64,000 bases of DNA from Kushneria pakistanensis. GTDB lineage: Bacteria > Pseudomonadota > Gammaproteobacteria > Pseudomonadales > Halomonadaceae. The stretch lies in NCBI RefSeq assembly GCF_014652795.1, contig NZ_BMZM01000002.1, positions 496,001 to 560,000 of the forward strand, in the 5' to 3' direction. This document shows positions 28,680 to 37,182 of this stretch, in pieces. The translations under genes were made by a program, and so were the position numbers. The stretch's first letter is position 1, and each line of letters starts with the position of its first letter. Under the pieces are notes generated by a model that was not told where the DNA came from, did no database searches, and saw nothing but the letters and a program-made list of their open reading frames with translations.

Positions 28680-28828
28680 GCTTTTCCTGTTGGCGTGCCT
28701 TTATGGGGCGGGTATTCCACGATGGAAGACTGCCCCGAGTTTGAACGACAGGGCATACTTGCCCCGTCACGTCGGTTTTCTGCTATGTTAGAACGCTTTT
28801 TTGAATGGACTCAGTGAGGCGAAGCATC

Positions 28829-29254
28829 ATGACAGTCAATATCCCTGCCAACGAACAAGAGCTTCTTGCCATGCCGGCTGAGGACTACATGAACGAGGCG
28901 CAGCTGGAATATTTTCGCCAGCTGCTGCTCAACGAGCGCAAGGAAGTCGAAGAGACCCTTGAAGAAATGCGCGGCAGTATCGGCATGGCAGAAAGCAGCG
29001 GTGATGACAGCGACCGCGCGGCCAGTGAGGAAGAACTGCGCTATACCCTGCGTCAGGCCGATCGTGAAACGCGCCTGTGGCGCAAGATCAATGCCACGCT
29101 TGATCGCATCGATGAAGGCGATTATGGCTTTTGTGAAGAGACCGGCGAGCCCATCGGACTCAAGCGTCTGCTGTTGCGCCCGACCGCCACACTGACGATC
29201 GAGGCCAAGCAGCGCCAGGAACAGAAGGAAAACCACTACGCCCGCCGTCGCTGA
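28829..29254 (+). CDS. dksA: DksA-type RNA polymerase-binding regulator with a degenerate zinc site
   Basis: 141-residue transcription factor that works with ppGpp in the RNA polymerase secondary channel. The coiled-coil tip DDSDRA keeps both Asp residues of the DxxDRA motif needed for activity. The globular end reads FCEETGEPIGLKRLLLRPTA then TLTIEAKQ; canonical DksA has CxxC and CxxC here. Only the first Cys remains; the others are Thr, Thr and Ala. Single-Cys active DksA proteins are known from alphaproteobacteria, and Pseudomonas DksA2 is a zinc-independent paralogue. The ATG at 28829 fits DksA N-termini better than the one at 28805. Confidence 0.9.
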   Translation: MTVNIPANEQELLAMPAEDYMNEAQLEYFRQLLLNERKEVEETLEEMRGSIGMAESSGDDSDRAASEEELRYTLRQADRETRLWRKINATLDRIDEGDYGFCEETGEPIGLKRLLLRPTATLTIEAKQRQEQKENHYARRR

Positions 29255-29294
29255 CACGGCGTCGGCCGTCACGGGCTGCGCCTTCTCACTGTCT

Positions 29295-29325
29295 AAAAAT
29301 CGCTCCTGTCGGGGCGATTTTTTTA
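29295..29325 (+). terminator. Terminator after dksA
   Basis: Stem AAATCGCTCC/GGGGCGATTT with one G-T pair, loop TGTC and a seven-T run. Confidence 0.88.
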
Positions 29326-29580
29326 TGTTTGTGCTTTGGCTTCTCTGCCATGTGCTGATTTTTCGCCGATTCCCCACAAGATATCGGTCAGCTTAATCAA
29401 TGGCAAAATCTGAAACATTGATACTGGAAGGCTCAGTAAGTTAATTGTAATTCGGATTTCAGGGGTTAGGCGAAAAGTAGGGGAATTATCATCCGATCTG
29501 CACATATATCCTGCTAATGTAAGCGTTATCATCCTGTAAAGAACAATGAAAAGACATCAACGCGGGATGACCGTTTGGGG

Positions 29581-29610
29581 CTTCAGCCTGTTTCAGGCGA
29601 CAGGCTGAAG
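29581..29610. repeat. Perfect 11-base inverted repeat upstream of the operon
   Basis: CTTCAGCCTGT (29581-29591) and ACAGGCTGAAG (29600-29610) around eight bases. There is no T-tract, so an operator or leader hairpin is more likely than a terminator. It lies 185 bases before the first gene. Confidence 0.6.
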
Positions 29611-29795
29611 GGCCAACAGGCTTGGTTGATGACGATATGCACGGATGAATGGCTGCTTCTTGAGCGTTTGATACTTCTGGCTTAAAGGCATGATGGGCGT
29701 CTCATATCAGACCACCACTGACGAGACGCGCCGACTCATGCTGCCAGAGGTAGCTGGAAGTGGCTTTTTTCTGGCAGAAGCAGGGAGCCTGAAGA

Positions 29796-30230
29796 ATGCC
29801 GAAAGGCATGATAATACTTGTATCAGTAGTCATGTTGCTGCTTTGGTGCAGTCAGGCGACGTATGCCCATGAATCGGTGGTGCTCATCGCCAATCCTTCG
29901 ACGCAACCCGGCAACATGACCCGGGAAACCGTGCGCGCCATTTTTGCCATGCGCCAGCGCACACTCCCCGACGGCGAGGCGGCGCATGTCTTTGTCCTGC
30001 CGGACAAGCACCCGCTGCATGAGCGCTTTACCAAGGAGATTCTTGGCGTTTATCCCCATCAACTGCGTCTTTCCTGGGATCGGCTGGTATTTTCCGGCAC
30101 AGGACAGGCACCCAATCAAGTCAAGTCGATAGAAGAGATGCGACAACGTGTGGCCAATACACCCGGCGGGCTGGGCTATCTGGAAAAAGGAGCCGTGGAT
30201 GATAGCGTCAGCGTTTTTGCAGTGGAGTAA
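29796..30230 (+). CDS. Small periplasmic phosphate-binding-protein-like protein
   Basis: 144 residues with a signal peptide (IILVSVVMLLLWCSQATYAHE). The mature part is one lobe of a PstS-like type 2 periplasmic binding fold: VVLIANPSTQPGNMTRETVRAIFAMRQRTLPDGEAAHVFVLPD, KEILGVYPHQLRLSWDRLVFSGTG, and the closing TPGGLGYLE, which resembles the phosphate-loop end of PstS. It is half the size of a full binding protein, as in stand-alone PBP-like sensors beside c-di-GMP genes. It is the first gene of a four-gene operon. The next gene starts inside its 3' end. Confidence 0.8.
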   Translation: MPKGMIILVSVVMLLLWCSQATYAHESVVLIANPSTQPGNMTRETVRAIFAMRQRTLPDGEAAHVFVLPDKHPLHERFTKEILGVYPHQLRLSWDRLVFSGTGQAPNQVKSIEEMRQRVANTPGGLGYLEKGAVDDSVSVFAVE

Positions 30231-31398
30231 TCAGCGCTGCCGTTATCTGTATGTCACAGCACTGGTGATGGCCACGATGGCCAGCAGCATATCTGCTGCT
30301 CGCGCCGACGTGTTCGATACCGTGCAGGCCCATGGGTTTCTAAGCCAGGCGCTGATCATCAGCCGACACAATGATTTCTTCGGCCCCAGCAGCAAGGACG
30401 CCGGCAGTCTTCAATACACGGAAGTTGGCGCCAATGTATCCATGCGTCCAAGCAATAATCTGCTGGTCTCGGCACAGGTATTAAGCCGTCGGGCGGGTGA
30501 TGACAACAGCAGCTATGAGCCGCGTCTCGATTATGGTCTGCTGGATTACCAGTTCATTACGGGTAACAACCGTGTCGCAGGTGTGCAGATCGGAAAGCTG
30601 AAACAGCCTTTTGGTATCTATAACCAGACGCGTGATGTTGCTTTTACAAGGCCCAGCATACTTTTGCCACAGTCGATATATTTCGATCGAACCCGGGCAC
30701 CGGCTCTGTCGTCAGAAGGTGTCTCTGTTTATGAAGAAGAGCACCTGCCTTTTGGCATACTTTATTTTCAGGCTGGGGTGGGCAAGGCCAACACTGATAG
30801 CAACGTAAAACATACTATTTGGAATTCAAATGTGCCGGCCTCCATCGACGGTGCATTGTCTTCGATTGGACAAGTTGTTTATGAGCATGGCCCGGGCAAT
30901 ATTATCGCTGCTCTAACTATCGCTGATGCCAACATAGATATTGATGGCCCACACGGTGCACCTGATCGATATTCCTTCAAACCAATCATAATGTCTCTTC
31001 AATATAATCACGGATACTGGAGCCTGACAGGTGAGTATGCGCTCAGGCACCAATCCTTTACTGGCGGGAGTTTCGATCAGAGTGTCGTGGGAGAAAGCTG
31101 GTATCTTCAGTACACGCAACGTTTTCTGGAAGACTGGCAGTGGCTCTTGAGGTATGACTCACTTGTCAATAACCGGGATGATCCGAAAGGGAAGAAGTTT
31201 GAGGCTGACGGAAGAGGTGCTGACCATTCTCAGTTTGCCAGAGACTGGACACTGGGTCTGCAGTGGAATGCTACCCCTGACCTATTGCTTTCAACGGAAT
31301 ACCATCATGTGAATGGTACTGGCTGGCTGCCCAGAGATCAGGATGTATCAGACCAGTATTGGGGAATGTTTCTTCTTCAGGCTTCATGGCGTTTTTAA
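30199..31398 (+). CDS. Outer-membrane beta-barrel protein, porin-like
   Basis: 399 residues. A signal peptide (LYVTALVMATMASSISAARA) precedes a mature chain of alternating polar/hydrophobic strands with many aromatic residues, ending in ASWRF, a C-terminal Phe typical of BAM-assembled barrels. VGANVSMRPSNNLLVSAQVLSRR, GVQIGKLKQPFGIYNQTRDVAFTRPS and YYLQYTQRFLEDWQWLLRYD-like strands recall OprP/OprO-type or DUF-type porins. The ATG at 30199 has AAGGAG upstream and overlaps the previous gene by 32 bases, so expression is coupled. Confidence 0.8.
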   Translation: MIASAFLQWSNQRCRYLYVTALVMATMASSISAARADVFDTVQAHGFLSQALIISRHNDFFGPSSKDAGSLQYTEVGANVSMRPSNNLLVSAQVLSRRAGDDNSSYEPRLDYGLLDYQFITGNNRVAGVQIGKLKQPFGIYNQTRDVAFTRPSILLPQSIYFDRTRAPALSSEGVSVYEEEHLPFGILYFQAGVGKANTDSNVKHTIWNSNVPASIDGALSSIGQVVYEHGPGNIIAALTIADANIDIDGPHGAPDRYSFKPIIMSLQYNHGYWSLTGEYALRHQSFTGGSFDQSVVGESWYLQYTQRFLEDWQWLLRYDSLVNNRDDPKGKKFEADGRGADHSQFARDWTLGLQWNATPDLLLSTEYHHVNGTGWLPRDQDVSDQYWGMFLLQASWRF

Positions 31399-31453
31399 AA
31401 AGCGCCACGTGTTCGGCCGCATATATCTGCCATAAGCATTCTGGGAGAATGGC

Positions 31454-34255
31454 ATGAATTTCAGCCTGAAATGGCGCGCTATCATATTAACCAGTCTGGT
31501 AATGGTAGGTCTGGCAAGTACTTTGACAATAGTCAGCTATCGAAATCTCTCTGAACAGTTCAAGACTTCTCAGGAAGCCAGTTATAGAAGTCGTATTGAA
31601 GACATTAATATGTCGCTGGAGCGATCCTTTGATGGTCTGCGTCAAGTCGCCGGTATTGTTGCTTCATCCAATAGCCTCGGTGAAGCGCTTGAAAATAATA
31701 ACTATTCCTTTATCGACCAGATGCTGCGTTCTCAGTGGCCAACGCTTCAGATTGAGGTGGGAATAGAAAGTCTTTCCATCCTGAACATGGATGGCAGAAT
31801 TGTTTCCACACTCGGTACTCCTCAGTCAAATATACCCAAAAATCTGATGAGTGCATGGGAGCAGAATGTCATTCTCGATGAAATGCCCGCAAAAACCTTA
31901 ATATGTACGAATGTCTGCCGTCAGTATGTTGCCGTACCGGTTCTGGCAGATGGTGAAAGTGTAGGGGTTGTGGTGATCACAAGCTCGTTGAGCAATGTTA
32001 TTTTATATACCAATAAAAGCTCGGGAGGCGATGTTGCTCTTTTGATACAAGGAGAAGTTTCTGCGAGCCATACACACTATTTACCCTCCTGGCAGGCCTC
32101 CATTATTGCGCTGACCAATGAGAAAGAAGAGCTGCCTGTTATCAGAGAGATTGCTCGGTCGAACTTGCTGACATCAATAACTCAACAGTCCGTTCGTTTA
32201 AAACATGGTGATAGTCACTATGAAGTCTTTGCCATGCCGCTGGAAAACTTTCAGGGTAGTGGTGATATCAGTCATCTCCTTTTGATGTCCGACATTACCG
32301 CTCAAGTGAACGGGATTGTGGAAAATACCAGAAACACCTTCATTATTGCAGTATTGGGTTGGCTGGTCGCTGAAATATTTCTTTTCATGATCCTTTGGAA
32401 ACCCATGGCCAGGCTTCGCCACTTGTCCAGTGTACTGCCTTCCCTGGCACATGGCGGTTTTGATCGTGTTAGACGTAGAACGCAAATAAAAAGCAAGAAA
32501 TGGAGGGATGAAATAGATGTTCTTGACAGGGCTGCTTTTGATCTTGCTGATCAACTTGAGCGACTTGAAAACAAGGTCTCCATGCGCGATCTGGAGCTAT
32601 CGGCGCGTTTAAAGGAGCTGGCAAAAGAAAGAGATTTTATTGGCGGGTTACTTGATAACGCACATGTCCTGATCCTGACGCATGACAAGGAAGGCAATAT
32701 AACGCTGATTAACCGGCATGCTCAGGAAACCATGGGGCATGACCAAAGCCTGATTGGTCGCTCTTTTGAAGCAATCTTTAACCTTGATATGCATCTTGCC
32801 ATACAACTGTCAGAAAATACCAGACAGCAGGAAAGCACGGTAAAGAAAGTAGATGGTGAAGATATTATTGTGACGTGGGTTCATGCGCCACTGGATCCTG
32901 TTTCTAAAGGCGAAGATTATATTTCTGTAGGACTTGATATTACTGCCCGAAAACAGGCCGAAAAGAGGCTGGCATGGCTTGCCAATCGTGATCCTTTGAC
33001 AGAACTTTATAATCGACGATTTTTTGAACATAAGTTAAAGGACGTCATGCATGACCACAATAATAGGGGAGCAGTGCTGTATCTAGATCTGGACCAGTTC
33101 AAGAATGTCAATGAGCTGGGTGGTCACCATTCTGGAGATCAGCTTTTAAAGCTCGTGGCGCAGGCGTTGATTGAGGAACTGGGAGAAAATGCGATCGTGG
33201 CCCGCCAGGGTGGCGATGAGTTCTCTATTCTGCTTGAAAGTGCAACCGCAAACGATGCTCGTCATATGGCATCCAGAATATCCCGTAAGCTCGAAGATAT
33301 TGTGTTTTGTGAAAATGGCCGTCGACACCGTGCCATGGCGAGTATTGGTATCGCTCTCTATCCGGATCACGGTGTAGATCATATAAAGTTGATGGCCAAT
33401 GCTGATTTTGCCATGTATAAGGCAAAGGATCTGAACAGTAATAAATGGTATTTGATTCCTGATGAATATGATACGAGTCATGAGCTTCAGGAGCGTGTTT
33501 ACTGGATGGATGAAATACGCCGAGCGCTAAGCGAAAGACGTTTTGAACTGGCGGTGCAACCCATCGCATGTGTTGAGTATGGCACCATTCAACACTACGA
33601 AGTCCTTCTGCGCATGCGGGATGAAAACGGCAATCTTGCCATGCCGGGACTGTTTATACCTGCTGCAGAAAGAAGCGGGCTTATTGTTGAAGTTGATCGC
33701 TGGGTATTATGTGAAAGCCTGGATATTCTTTCCAGACTGCGAAAACGGCCCATTACGCTTGCTGTCAATATATCCGGGACGACACTACAGGATGAAGGTT
33801 TCAGGGGTTTTGTAGAACAGGCATTAAAGGTGCGGGGACTTGATCCGGCGAGATTGATTCTCGAAGTTACTGAAACAGCTGCGGTTACGGATTTTTCGAA
33901 GGCCAATAATCTTTTAAAAGGTGTTCAGGCACTTGGATGCAAGATCGCACTTGACGATTTTGGTGTCGGGTTCAGCAGTTTTCACTATCTGGGTCAAATG
34001 CCAAGCGATTACATAAAGATAGATGGTTCTTTTGTCAGCGAAATGCTCAAGTCATATGAAAACAGGCTGGTGGTCAAGGCTATTGCAGATGTCGCCAAGG
34101 GATTTGGCAAGAAGGTAATTGCAGAATTTGTCAGCGATGCACAGATACTGGAGGCATTGAAGGGATTAAATGTCGATTATGCGCAGGGATATTATGTGGG
34201 GTTCCCCATCAGACCCGAAGAGGCATTTAATTTTTCAAGCGATGGCAAAAAATGA
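31454..34255 (+). CDS. Membrane sensor with PAS, GGDEF and EAL domains
   Basis: 933-residue c-di-GMP enzyme. A helix at about 8-28 and another at about 294-315 enclose a periplasmic sensor of some 260 residues containing Cys pair LICTNVC. Then come a HAMP-like linker, PAS (about 390-500), GGDEF (ARQGGDEF near 585, intact) and EAL (YEVLLR near 715). The product-inhibition RxxD before GGDEF is absent. EAL catalytic positions are mostly kept (VNIS, EVTE, LDDFG, YIKID, AEFV, AQGY), but AEFVS has Ser where AEGVE has its second Glu. Both activities are therefore possible. GGGAG precedes the ATG. It overlaps the acyltransferase gene by 4 bases. Confidence 0.92.
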   Translation: MNFSLKWRAIILTSLVMVGLASTLTIVSYRNLSEQFKTSQEASYRSRIEDINMSLERSFDGLRQVAGIVASSNSLGEALENNNYSFIDQMLRSQWPTLQIEVGIESLSILNMDGRIVSTLGTPQSNIPKNLMSAWEQNVILDEMPAKTLICTNVCRQYVAVPVLADGESVGVVVITSSLSNVILYTNKSSGGDVALLIQGEVSASHTHYLPSWQASIIALTNEKEELPVIREIARSNLLTSITQQSVRLKHGDSHYEVFAMPLENFQGSGDISHLLLMSDITAQVNGIVENTRNTFIIAVLGWLVAEIFLFMILWKPMARLRHLSSVLPSLAHGGFDRVRRRTQIKSKKWRDEIDVLDRAAFDLADQLERLENKVSMRDLELSARLKELAKERDFIGGLLDNAHVLILTHDKEGNITLINRHAQETMGHDQSLIGRSFEAIFNLDMHLAIQLSENTRQQESTVKKVDGEDIIVTWVHAPLDPVSKGEDYISVGLDITARKQAEKRLAWLANRDPLTELYNRRFFEHKLKDVMHDHNNRGAVLYLDLDQFKNVNELGGHHSGDQLLKLVAQALIEELGENAIVARQGGDEFSILLESATANDARHMASRISRKLEDIVFCENGRRHRAMASIGIALYPDHGVDHIKLMANADFAMYKAKDLNSNKWYLIPDEYDTSHELQERVYWMDEIRRALSERRFELAVQPIACVEYGTIQHYEVLLRMRDENGNLAMPGLFIPAAERSGLIVEVDRWVLCESLDILSRLRKRPITLAVNISGTTLQDEGFRGFVEQALKVRGLDPARLILEVTETAAVTDFSKANNLLKGVQALGCKIALDDFGVGFSSFHYLGQMPSDYIKIDGSFVSEMLKSYENRLVVKAIADVAKGFGKKVIAEFVSDAQILEALKGLNVDYAQGYYVGFPIRPEEAFNFSSDGKK

Positions 34256-35004
34256 GCAAAGAGCTGTTTGACAGGGATTATAATATAATCTTTGCAGTAA
34301 CTGAGAAAGAAAAGAAAAGAGTATACTCACTAAGACATGATGTCTACTGTGAGGAGCTTGGGTTTGAGCCTGTCAATAGTAGTGAGGCTATTGAAAAGGA
34401 TCCCTTCGATGAACGCGCGCTGCACTGTCTCATAGAAAAACGAGAAAGTGGTCAGGCTGTCGGATGTGCAAGACTTGTATTACCTTCCGAAACCTTGGGG
34501 TCTCCATTTTATAGAATGCCGCTCGAGCTGAAATTTTCCTCTCTTTTTGAAAGTCACGAGCATCATCCTGATCTTTTTCAAAGAAAGGATATTTGTGAAA
34601 TATCCAGAGTGGCGATACTGGGGGATATCAGAAAAGGCAAAAAAGCCAAAACACTGGCTCAAAACCCTCCTCAGTCTGTCAGGACGGCGTCATTTCTCAA
34701 GGCAGGTCTTTTTCTGTCAGTGCTTGCACTTGGAAAGATATCCAATCGTCAATATGGCTTTGCGATGATGGAACCTTCTTTGGCAAGACTCCTGTCATAT
34801 TCAGGGTTTCGCTTTTCACGAGTTAGCCAGTATCTTGAATTTAATGGTAAAAGAGCCATCTATTACAGTGACTGGAAAGAAGCTGTCGGCCAGCTGTGCC
34901 CGGAAATGCATGAGCTTTACGAATACATCGCCGAGCGTTTTAGCGGCGATCTTGTCGAGCATGACATGTCCAGGAAAGGGATAGCCGGATATCAGAAGAT
35001 TTGA
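34252..35004 (+). CDS. Acyltransferase of the PEP-CTERM-associated / autoinducer-synthase-like GNAT family
   Basis: 250 residues. The N-terminal VYSLRHDVYCEELGFEP matches the LRxxVxxxExGw-type motif shared by N-acyl amino acid synthases, acyl-homoserine lactone synthases and the PEP-CTERM/exosortase-associated acyltransferases. CARLVLP and EISRVAILGD are further core motifs of that group, and MMEPSLARLLSYSGF ends the fold. These enzymes join a fatty acyl chain from ACP to an amine. No exosortase or PEP-CTERM protein is in the window. ATGA overlap with the GGDEF-EAL gene ties its production to c-di-GMP signalling. Base composition is AT-rich, unlike the neighbours. Confidence 0.82.
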   Translation: MSKELFDRDYNIIFAVTEKEKKRVYSLRHDVYCEELGFEPVNSSEAIEKDPFDERALHCLIEKRESGQAVGCARLVLPSETLGSPFYRMPLELKFSSLFESHEHHPDLFQRKDICEISRVAILGDIRKGKKAKTLAQNPPQSVRTASFLKAGLFLSVLALGKISNRQYGFAMMEPSLARLLSYSGFRFSRVSQYLEFNGKRAIYYSDWKEAVGQLCPEMHELYEYIAERFSGDLVEHDMSRKGIAGYQKI

Positions 35005-35031
35005 AGCCACTGTCCGGCTATCCTTGAGACG

Positions 35032-36138
35032 TTACTGATTCAAAAACAGATCCTTGTATTGATGCGGCTGTGAGCGCAGATACTGATTCGGCGCCTTCAC
35101 CTGCGCCCCCAGCGCCGCAGCGGCGTGCCACGGCCAGCGCGGGTTGTAGAGCATGGTTCTGGCCAGTGCGACCGCATCGGCATCTCCGGTGGCCACGATG
35201 GCTTCTGCCTGTTCCGGTTCGGTAATCAATCCCACGGCAATGGTCGGCATCTCGACGACTTCACCGATGGCGCGCGCCAGCGGCACCTGATAGCTCGGGC
35301 CGACCGGGATCTGCTGGGCCGGGCTCAGTCCACCACTGGATACGTGAATAAAGCTGCAGCCCCGGGCATCCAGTTCTTTTGCCAGTGCCTGACTTTCCTC
35401 GACGCTCCAGCCGCCCTCCACCCAGTCCGTGGCAGAGATACGTATTCCGACCGGTCGTTCCTGTGGAAAGACTTCTCTTATGGCATCAAAGATCTCGAGC
35501 GTCAGGCGCATGCGGTTTTCCAGGCTGCCGCCGTACTGATCACTGCGCTGATTGGACAGCGGCGAGAGGAACTGATGCAGTAGATAGCCATGGGCGGCGT
35601 GAATCTCGATCGCCTCGATGCCCAGCCGTGCCGAGCGCTCGGCAGCACGCCTGAACTGCTCGCGAACCTCCTTGATCTCGTCAATGGAGAGGGCATGCGG
35701 GGCGTGTTCTTCTTCACTGTAGGCAAGCGCTGAAGGGGCAACAGTCTGCCAGCCACGCGGCGCGTCAGGTGCTATCTGCGCGCCGCCTTCCCAGGGCACA
35801 TGCGTGGAGGCCTTGCGTCCGGCGTGCCCCAGCTGAATGCCCAGCGGCATGTCCGAGTTTGCGCGCACGGCATCCAGGGTGTTTTTCAGCGCCTGTTCGT
35901 TGTCGTCGTTCCAGAGTCCGAGATCATCAGGGCTGATACGGCCTTCCGGCGAGACAGCCGTGGCTTCCAGAATCAACAGACCGGCACCTGACAGCGCCAG
36001 TTGCCCCAGGTGAATGGTGTGCCAGTCGGTGGCATTGCCATCGCGGGCGGAGTACTGGCACATCGGCGCGATCAGAATGCGATTGGGCAGTTCAAGCCTG
36101 CCAAGCTTCAGGGGATCAAAAAGACGAGGGGAGGGCAT
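35032..36138 (-). CDS. Old yellow enzyme, YqjM/NamA-type NADH:flavin oxidoreductase
   Basis: 368-residue FMN enzyme that reduces activated C=C bonds with NAD(P)H. The YqjM-class marks are present: Cys and Tyr in APMCQYSA, the HAAHGYLLHQFLSPLSNQRSDQYGGSLENR block with substrate-binding His pair and Tyr, and GLI/ALARTMLYNPRWPWHAA at the end. The ATG at 36138 begins the conserved MPSPRLFDPLKLGRL; an upstream in-frame ATG is not supported. It faces the acyltransferase operon convergently with no clear terminator between. Confidence 0.92.
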   Translation of the reverse strand: MPSPRLFDPLKLGRLELPNRILIAPMCQYSARDGNATDWHTIHLGQLALSGAGLLILEATAVSPEGRISPDDLGLWNDDNEQALKNTLDAVRANSDMPLGIQLGHAGRKASTHVPWEGGAQIAPDAPRGWQTVAPSALAYSEEEHAPHALSIDEIKEVREQFRRAAERSARLGIEAIEIHAAHGYLLHQFLSPLSNQRSDQYGGSLENRMRLTLEIFDAIREVFPQERPVGIRISATDWVEGGWSVEESQALAKELDARGCSFIHVSSGGLSPAQQIPVGPSYQVPLARAIGEVVEMPTIAVGLITEPEQAEAIVATGDADAVALARTMLYNPRWPWHAAAALGAQVKAPNQYLRSQPHQYKDLFLNQ

Positions 36139-36453
36139 TGAGGTTCTCCGTAAAAATTCAAATCCAGCAGATAACCCTGAGTCTGGCACAGGCCAAAGCC
36201 ATTAGCACGCTATCAAAGTCGATGAGGGCCATCGAAAATTTTTTGTCCGTGTCAGGAACTCCTTGCCACAGGGCGACTCAAAGTCAGTGTTCCCTTGAAT
36301 GATCCCTTGCAAGAATATTTCTTGTCGCCTGCCATCCCCTGGCAGGCTTTTTTTTGCCTGTGACGCTGGCCATGTCAACGTCCTCTCCGGGCAGCGTCAG
36401 GTCATGCCGGAAGGACCTACAATAGAAGCATTCGCGTCACTGGAGCCTTGCGC
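36139..36453. other. Intergenic region with an orphan plus-strand terminator
   Basis: 315 bases between divergent genes. There is a strong terminator at 36327-36355 with no plus-strand gene before it, and an AT-rich dyad CAAGAA-TAT-TTCTTG at 36310-36324. A small RNA transcribed from about 36200 would explain both, though no promoter is firmly identified. Confidence 0.5.
36327..36355 (+). terminator. Orphan intrinsic terminator
   Basis: Perfect stem GCCTGCCA/TGGCAGGC, five-base loop and eight T's on the plus strand. There is no A-run on the other side, so it works only in the plus direction, where no gene precedes it for over 1.3 kb. Confidence 0.85.
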
Positions 36454-37182
36454 ATGATTCAATCCCCATTACTGACGGCCGTCTCATCCGTTGCGCACGG
36501 GTTTGGGCATCGGCAGATGTTGATGCCCGAGGTCCTGGTCGGGTTTGAAGCGGCACGGCCGCAAAAACAGCAGGTGCATGGCACGCGCGTTGTCACGGTC
36601 GACGCTCCCGGCCAGGCATGTGGCGAGGCCGACGGGTTTCTGACCGACCAGCCCGGTATTCCTGTTTCAATCGTCACCGCAGATTGTCTGCCCATTCTGC
36701 TGGCCCATCGCAGCGGGCACTATATTGGCGCCCTGCACGCCGGCTGGCGCGGGCTTCTTGATGGCATTATCGAGTCGATGCTGGGGCAGATTACGGCCTG
36801 GCGATGGGGTGAGCTGTCTGAATGGATCGCGGTGGTCGGCCCGGCCGCCGGGGCGCAGGCCTATGAGGTCAGTGAAGCGCTGGTCGATACGTTCCGGGAA
36901 AGGCTCGATCTGCCTGAGGCGCTCATGTCACCTCGTCCGCGTCATCTGGCGCTTGGTGCCATCGCCTGTTACAAGCTCCAGGCGGCAGGCGTGGGAGAAA
37001 TCGGCCATATCGATCAATGCACGATCACCACACGGGTTGATGGGTCTACGGGCGCCATTGACGGTACTGATGCTGATGCCTATCGGTTCCAGAGCCATCG
37101 GCGGCATACGTTGACCCATCCCGATCCTGAAGCGCGTCCGAAACTGCCCAATCAGCACGCCGGTCTCGTGATCCTGCCCTGA
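36454..37182 (+). CDS. pgeF: Peptidoglycan editing factor, YfiH/laccase-domain protein
   Basis: 242-residue multicopper-like fold protein. PgeF removes wrongly incorporated serine from the peptidoglycan stem; relatives oxidise purine nucleosides. The metal-site residues are present: His in QQVHGTRVV, Cys in VTADCLPILL and His in LHAGWRGLL. GGAG lies eight bases before the ATG at 36454; a TTG two codons earlier is less likely. parS site 2 lies 23 bases after the stop. Confidence 0.9.
   Translation: MIQSPLLTAVSSVAHGFGHRQMLMPEVLVGFEAARPQKQQVHGTRVVTVDAPGQACGEADGFLTDQPGIPVSIVTADCLPILLAHRSGHYIGALHAGWRGLLDGIIESMLGQITAWRWGELSEWIAVVGPAAGAQAYEVSEALVDTFRERLDLPEALMSPRPRHLALGAIACYKLQAAGVGEIGHIDQCTITTRVDGSTGAIDGTDADAYRFQSHRRHTLTHPDPEARPKLPNQHAGLVILP

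Follow-up and report, generated by a model that had tools for sequence, protein, structure and literature searches.

Why would a bacterium keep an acyltransferase related to autoinducer and N-acyl amino acid synthases in one operon with half of a binding protein, an outer-membrane barrel, and a c-di-GMP enzyme? The question is raised by four same-strand genes, here called A, B, C, and D, of Kushneria pakistanensis, which lie in the stretch of 64,000 nucleotides analyzed as a whole (the window). An initial annotation made from the letters of the window read them as one operon that could sense an extracellular ligand, change c-di-GMP, and make or export an acylated signal or lipid. The four open reading frames and their overlaps were confirmed as described there.

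The four genes and their predicted products

Gene A (29796 to 30230, + strand) encodes an exported protein of 144 residues, the signal peptide of which was judged by eye. Its match to PBP_like_2 lies below the cut-off (21.1 bits against 27). In a Foldseek search, the AlphaFold model of A (59 sequences; pLDDT 88.8) is matched best by PstS proteins, one lobe of which is covered (TM-score of 0.64 by query and 0.36 by target), in agreement with the earlier label of a PstS-like half protein. In the predicted structure, the A chain supplies only one lobe of the two-lobe phosphate site of PstS, and phosphate as a ligand of A is a lead only.

Gene B (30199 to 31398, + strand) encodes a porin-like outer-membrane barrel ending in phenylalanine, as do all 17 aligned B proteins. 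The most likely start is the ATG at 30199, 32 bases before the end of A, with the GTG at 30148 as an alternative; with starts taken from the longest open reading frames, 32 bases is also the A/B overlap seen most often in the named loci (in 21 of them). The match of B to Porin_O_P is sub-threshold (17.0 bits against a cut-off of 20.9), and this profile does not place it among the OprO/OprP porins. A variable segment of B, referred to here as B-middle, occupies 30721 to 31080 on the + strand (residues 175-294 counted from the ATG, equivalent to 181-300 of aligned B) and covaries with D, with a weaker covarying tail that extends to about residue 334.

Gene C (31454 to 34255, + strand) encodes a membrane sensor of 933 residues with four domains, all matched over their cut-offs on the same strand: a periplasmic dCache_3 sensor domain (31568 to 32302; 87.3 bits, cut-off 25.7), a PAS domain (32651 to 32956; PAS_4, 30.4 bits, cut-off 23.1), a GGDEF domain (32981 to 33442), and an EAL domain (33509 to 34201). 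The PAS-GGDEF-EAL sensor of the initial annotation is borne out by these matches, which also identify the sensor domain that it had left unnamed. Of 69 aligned C proteins, 68 have an intact GGDEF motif; the sole exception is GGGEF in Kushneria avicenniae (L104). Residues E716, N772, E804, D834, D835, K855, E891, and Q911, which we take to be the EAL catalytic residues, are intact in all 69.

Gene D (34252 to 35004, + strand), which overlaps the end of C at an ATGA, encodes a protein of 250 residues that passes the cut-off of TIGR03694, the family of PEP-CTERM/exosortase-associated acyltransferases (160.1 bits against 111.95). It also passes PF00765 (Autoind_synth; 28.1 bits, cut-off 24), lies below the cut-off of PF21926 (19.8 bits against 27), and falls far under the cut-offs of the NCBIfam AHL-synthase models, the TIGR03694 score being far higher. 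A fold search with the model of D (65 sequences; pLDDT 89.7) returned LuxI-type synthases and FeeM as top matches, and chains A and B of FeeM 2g0b are among the best (TM-score by target of 0.69 and 0.67). D is thus predicted to have the LuxI/FeeM fold, the two structures with which the initial annotation had proposed to compare it. Residues R28, E48, D50, D53, R74, E116, S118, R119, G199, and R201 are invariant in the 65 sequences.

The link of this acyltransferase family to exosortases reportedly comes from Craig et al. 2011. Unlike exosortase-associated TIGR03694 acyltransferases, D is joined to a c-di-GMP operon, and none of 201 Halomonadaceae genomes contains an exosortase over the family cut-off (one weak match occurs, in G024); PF09721 and TIGR03109 have no match in the K. 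pakistanensis genome itself. An exosortase system was rejected on these grounds as the explanation of D. The remark that no exosortase gene is present, made from the window, therefore extends to the genome, and an exosortase elsewhere in it, which the initial annotation had named as damaging to its reading, did not turn up. Background on N-acyl amino acid synthase (NAS) enzymes and on the exosortase link is found in PMC7293339 and PMC11631085.

A terminator-like hairpin lies at 29295 to 29322 (+ strand), between an upstream dksA-like gene and A; since six such sites occur in the region against 5.0 in shuffled sequences, it is weak evidence. A promoter scan gave five matches against 7.8 in shuffles, with none on the + strand, and positions 28700 to 36500 contain no Rfam match at the gathering score that would indicate an upstream riboswitch.

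Inheritance of the block and the possible origin of gene D

The four-gene block is a unit of inheritance in Halomonadaceae, as follows from its near-total co-occurrence and from neighboring genes that are little shared. The D profile matches 116 of 201 genomes of the family and the B profile 117, B being present in all 116 genomes with D; the single extra genome, G091, carries an 85-residue remnant of B. B and D lie on the same contig and strand in 115 of the 116 genomes, with 2846-3228 bases between them, and on different contigs in G123. Matches to A, B, C, and D occur in order in all of the 20 family loci fetched first, among which L035 has a split C and L051 a short D. Among the 80 named loci, 73 have the four genes in order on one strand; six of the remaining seven are truncated by contig ends, and the other, L168, has a C of 701 residues and no D in the following 1.9 kb. 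With crude open reading frame calls and four genes taken per side, the largest gene family in the flanks is present in 29 of the 80 loci. A chance neighborhood is ruled out by the 73 ordered loci and the 115 linked B-D pairs. The outcome that the initial annotation had named as contradicting it, a lack of co-occurrence elsewhere, was thus not observed, and its idea of one conserved sensory, c-di-GMP, and acyltransferase unit stood; it missed A-B-C as a wider module and the covariation of B-middle with D. Its remark that it knew of no described system with this exact set agrees with the titles and abstracts listed in searches of the open-license literature, among which no earlier description was found.

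Signs of decay were also seen. Four of the 73 ordered loci (L151, L160, L170, and L174) contain broken B, C, or D frames, which may reflect decay or assembly errors, and only fragments of B persist in G023 and G091, joined in G023 by fragments of D, a pattern that would fit decay of the whole operon together.

Outside the family, A-B-C and D are found apart. The A profile matches 103 of 293 genomes order-wide, nine of which are family members. In a sample of 20 outside loci from 18 non-family genomes, chosen among the stronger matches, 14 contain A, B, and a GGDEF-EAL C, two contain A, B, and a dCache_3-PAS protein without an output domain, three contain A and C with B undetected, and one is cut; D was found in none of the 20. 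In the class, 110 of 369 genomes match the D profile, many of them weakly, and three of the 110 are family members. No A, B, or dCache match was found near D in 20 outside loci from 19 of the stronger genomes; one of these loci has a GGDEF gene. An exosortase passes the cut-off in 25 of 32 genomes with D relatives, likewise chosen among the stronger class matches. A quick tree was built from 70 D proteins, taking 37 class rows and 33 of the 65 Halomonadaceae rows, and 32 of these 33 form one group (SH-aLRT 99); the D of L111 has a very long branch outside this group, and its placement is unsure. Since A-B-C exists without D outside the family, and D relatives exist without A-B-C, D seems to belong to an exosortase-linked family and to have been added to an older A-B-C module, a direction of history that we infer.

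Half-PstS proteins occur in other settings as well. In the two outside loci whose dCache_3-PAS protein lacks an output domain (L088:4320-6796 and L090:4713-7249), this protein follows A-B and is itself followed by a gene weakly like GDSL lipases. A further half-PstS gene of K. pakistanensis lies next to a Porin_4 gene (L202, G000:C3:401222-401611, - strand), with no transducer seen in the 3.4 kb examined. Distant half-PstS relatives are found near methyl-accepting chemotaxis proteins, assigned by Pfam in L182 and L200 and by motif in L184, L186, and L189, and in L182, L184, and L186 a weakly B-like barrel lies between the two. Half-PstS proteins might thus serve as adaptors to more than one kind of output.

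Matched alleles of B-middle and D

The comparison of operons used 192 loci, which gave 178 complete operons and 128 distinct ones; this set, with B split into segments, superseded a first run on 70 operons with B undivided. Close pairs (n = 259) were defined by an EAL difference below 0.12 and an A difference below 0.25. In these pairs, B-middle is as divergent as it is between unrelated operons if D is replaced, but not if D is kept; for the dCache domain and the conserved ends of B, the two groups show little difference. By pair counts, which are non-independent and in which a kept C follows in part from the selection on EAL and A, B-middle was kept in 107 and replaced in one of the 108 pairs with D kept, replaced in 116 and kept in six of the 122 pairs with D replaced, and kept in nine and replaced in 20 of the 29 pairs with an intermediate D. 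A dCache difference of at least 0.35 was found in three, five, and four of these pairs, respectively. When D classes were permuted within eight clusters, the observed agreement was reached in 0 of 2000 permutations; four of the clusters are single-class and uninformative, and the other four have agreement indices of 0.48, 1.00, 0.00, and 1.00.

Disjoint pairs and partial correlations are the fairer tests. In 46 disjoint nearest pairs, with each operon used once, B-middle was kept in 34 of 34 pairs with D kept and replaced in nine of ten with D replaced, two pairs being intermediate (Fisher p = 1.4e-8). This result is the same without L051, which is among the 128 operons with a D of 186 residues. 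Restricting the disjoint pairs to shared distances of at least 0.05 gave 25 of 25 and eight of nine, with four intermediate (p = 5e-7). Computed over all pairs and conditioned on the other segments, B-middle has a partial correlation with D of 0.63, whereas the values of A, the rest of B, dCache, GGDEF, and EAL lie between -0.09 and 0.15; after thinning to 117 operons, that of B-middle is 0.62. When distant pairs alone are taken, B-middle has a value of 0.46 and EAL one of 0.24. The match can also be seen through nearest neighbors: 107 operons have a match by D that lies beyond their own close group, and this match ranks in the first three by B-middle in 84 of them, by EAL in 61, by the rest of B in 61, by dCache in 48, and by A in 34.

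Segment 181-300 was picked after the differences between D-replaced and D-kept pairs had been inspected, so that the tables on this segment depend in part on that choice. A 20-residue scan of all four proteins recovers it independently of that choice, with correlations with D of 0.34-0.50 at B 181-300, about 0.2 at B 301-340, 0.28 in the last 20-residue interval of C, and at most 0.20 elsewhere in A, B, and C. The dCache domain, which is physically nearer, shows a correlation of -0.04 with B-middle. By their sequences, B-middle and D thus behave as matched alleles, which is a stronger finding than the initial annotation had claimed.

DNA profiles of individual pairs show how such replacements look. 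Between K. pakistanensis and K. indalinina, identity is 91% at the end of the upstream gene, 64-82% in the intergenic stretch before A, and 78-91% in A and the first part of B; it falls to 35-62% in the rest of B, C, and D, and is 83-91% just after D. Three pairs with Salinicola members show the same pattern, and Kushneria and Salinicola exchange C too. The operons of Billgrantia desiderata and B. ethanolica are mostly 80-100% identical in A, C, the two ends of B, and the flanks on either side, whereas identity drops to about 40-60% in the middle of B and in D. In two of the 12 pairs profiled on DNA (L152/L175 and L152/L123), D is replaced but B kept; four of the 12 pairs (these two, L129/L167, and L134/L148) lack a common downstream flank.

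A putative signalling unit and its alternatives

Two segments 3 kb apart that stay matched, although the intervening DNA (the 3' end of B and nearly all of C) mostly does not covary, are most simply explained as parts that have to fit each other. As D should be a soluble acyltransferase of the cytoplasm, and B a barrel in the outer membrane, the link would most likely run through the product of D. The explanation that we tentatively adopt, holding it at slightly under an even chance, is that A-B-C-D is one signalling unit, in which an allele-specific D product is recognized by B and relayed by A and C. D would make an N-acyl amino acid or a similar amide, the structure of which differs by allele, and the variable part of B would bind, pass, or export this product, each B allele fitting the product of its own D. 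The periplasmic PstS lobe of A and the dCache domain of C would then detect either the barrel in its loaded state or the ligand once delivered, and the GGDEF-EAL portion of C would convert this into a change in c-di-GMP and, through it, in attachment or motility. Such a circuit would be a form of self-recognition with its specificity located in the outer-membrane barrel. The covariation of B-middle with D makes the barrel, and not A, the likely specificity element, and since neither A nor C covaries with D, these would read a generic consequence; we infer the product, its direction of transport, and the route of the signal. A role of dCache as the specific receptor of the D product was not retained because dCache shows no covariation with D, and the lack of covariation in both A and dCache speaks against the simplest autoinducer model, in which the sensor domain is the receptor. 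Also counted against the proposed unit are the sub-threshold porin match of B, the discordant and intermediate close pairs, the uneven agreement indices of the clusters, the profiled pairs in which D is replaced but B kept or the downstream flank differs, and the exchange of C in Kushneria and Salinicola.

Several known systems resemble parts of this proposal. In agr, comQXPA, and pyoverdine/FpvA, genes for synthesis and recognition diversify as matched alleles within conserved surroundings. The D and B-middle alleles match in a similar way, with B as the putative recognizer; unlike in those systems, D is matched with a porin-like barrel of the outer membrane, and a GGDEF-EAL protein acts as the output enzyme. 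In NspS-MbaA of Vibrio cholerae and Sinorhizobium meliloti, a loaded binding protein changes c-di-GMP (PMC9993111). Judged here by gene order, the two arrangements share a periplasmic binding protein and a membrane GGDEF-EAL enzyme in overlapping genes. However, NspS is a PotD homologue whereas A is a half-PstS, and A-B-C-D adds a barrel and a synthase and has dCache_3 as the sensor domain of C. Besides NspS-MbaA, PMC9762135 was counted in favor of one signalling unit, and binding proteins are known to activate several receptor classes (PMC9602780). An N-acyl amino acid synthase has also been tied to c-di-GMP through the NAS-PilZ fusions Nas343 and Nas354 (PMC4897644). These are fused to a putative c-di-GMP receptor domain, whereas D shares its operon with a barrel and a c-di-GMP enzyme.

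A bolder version of the signalling unit, which we consider rather doubtful, makes the barrel an allele-specific receptor of a self-made N-acyl signal. It would read the surface or secreted lipid chemistry of kin and act through the half-PstS as an adaptor on the c-di-GMP enzyme, forming a self/non-self system of an undescribed kind, the allele pairs or whole cassettes of which are exchanged between lineages.

The rival that survives best, though we find it unlikely, is that A-B-C senses an unrelated, phosphate-like solute of the environment and that D makes a surfactant or aminolipid as an output, which the barrel exports, hence the match of B-middle and D. The resemblance of A to PstS and the weak Porin_O_P match of B fit this explanation, as do the occurrence of A-B-C elsewhere without D and the surface activity of N-acyl amino acids (PMC4897644). 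Yet A is one lobe only, so that the two-lobe site of PstS is absent from the single chain, and it is not evident why a general exporter would need an allele-specific wall.

An improbable alternative is neutral linkage, in which one long fragment with B-middle, C, and D was transferred, C was later homogenized by patch conversion, and the match has no function. Bacterial recombination does replace patches, and the whole-block replacements in Kushneria and Salinicola are what such transfer would leave. However, separate replacement of B-middle and D is possible through their conserved neighbors, yet only seven of 230 close pairs disagree (with the intermediate class excluded), the match persists between distant operons (partial r of 0.46), and dCache, which is nearer to B-middle, shows no match.

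Phage or bacteriocin selection could instead diversify the surface of B, with the D product shielding or modifying that surface, so that both diversify jointly without self-sensing. B-middle and D indeed rank with the most variable segments, and their replacement occurs in DNA that otherwise stays similar, but such selection gives no account of why D lies beside a sensor and a c-di-GMP enzyme, and we hold it to be about as improbable as neutral linkage. That D is an acyl-homoserine-lactone synthase for ordinary LuxR quorum sensing, hitchhiking in the operon, is very improbable indeed, since its PF00765 match and the LuxI-type structures that head its fold search are set against the 160-bit TIGR03694 score, the lack of a LuxR-type gene among the four operon genes, and a match with the barrel that would be left unexplained.

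If A-B-C-D is one signalling unit, it would tie N-acyl amide synthases to a defined sensory and c-di-GMP pathway. The physiological role of these synthases is called unclear in PMC4897644. The naturally occurring matched alleles offer a genetic handle on this role, and Billgrantia desiderata and B. ethanolica, with near-identical A, C, and ends of B and with different B-middle and D, make the model directly testable. Should the barrel recognize the product of D, specificity in bacterial signalling could reside in the outer membrane.
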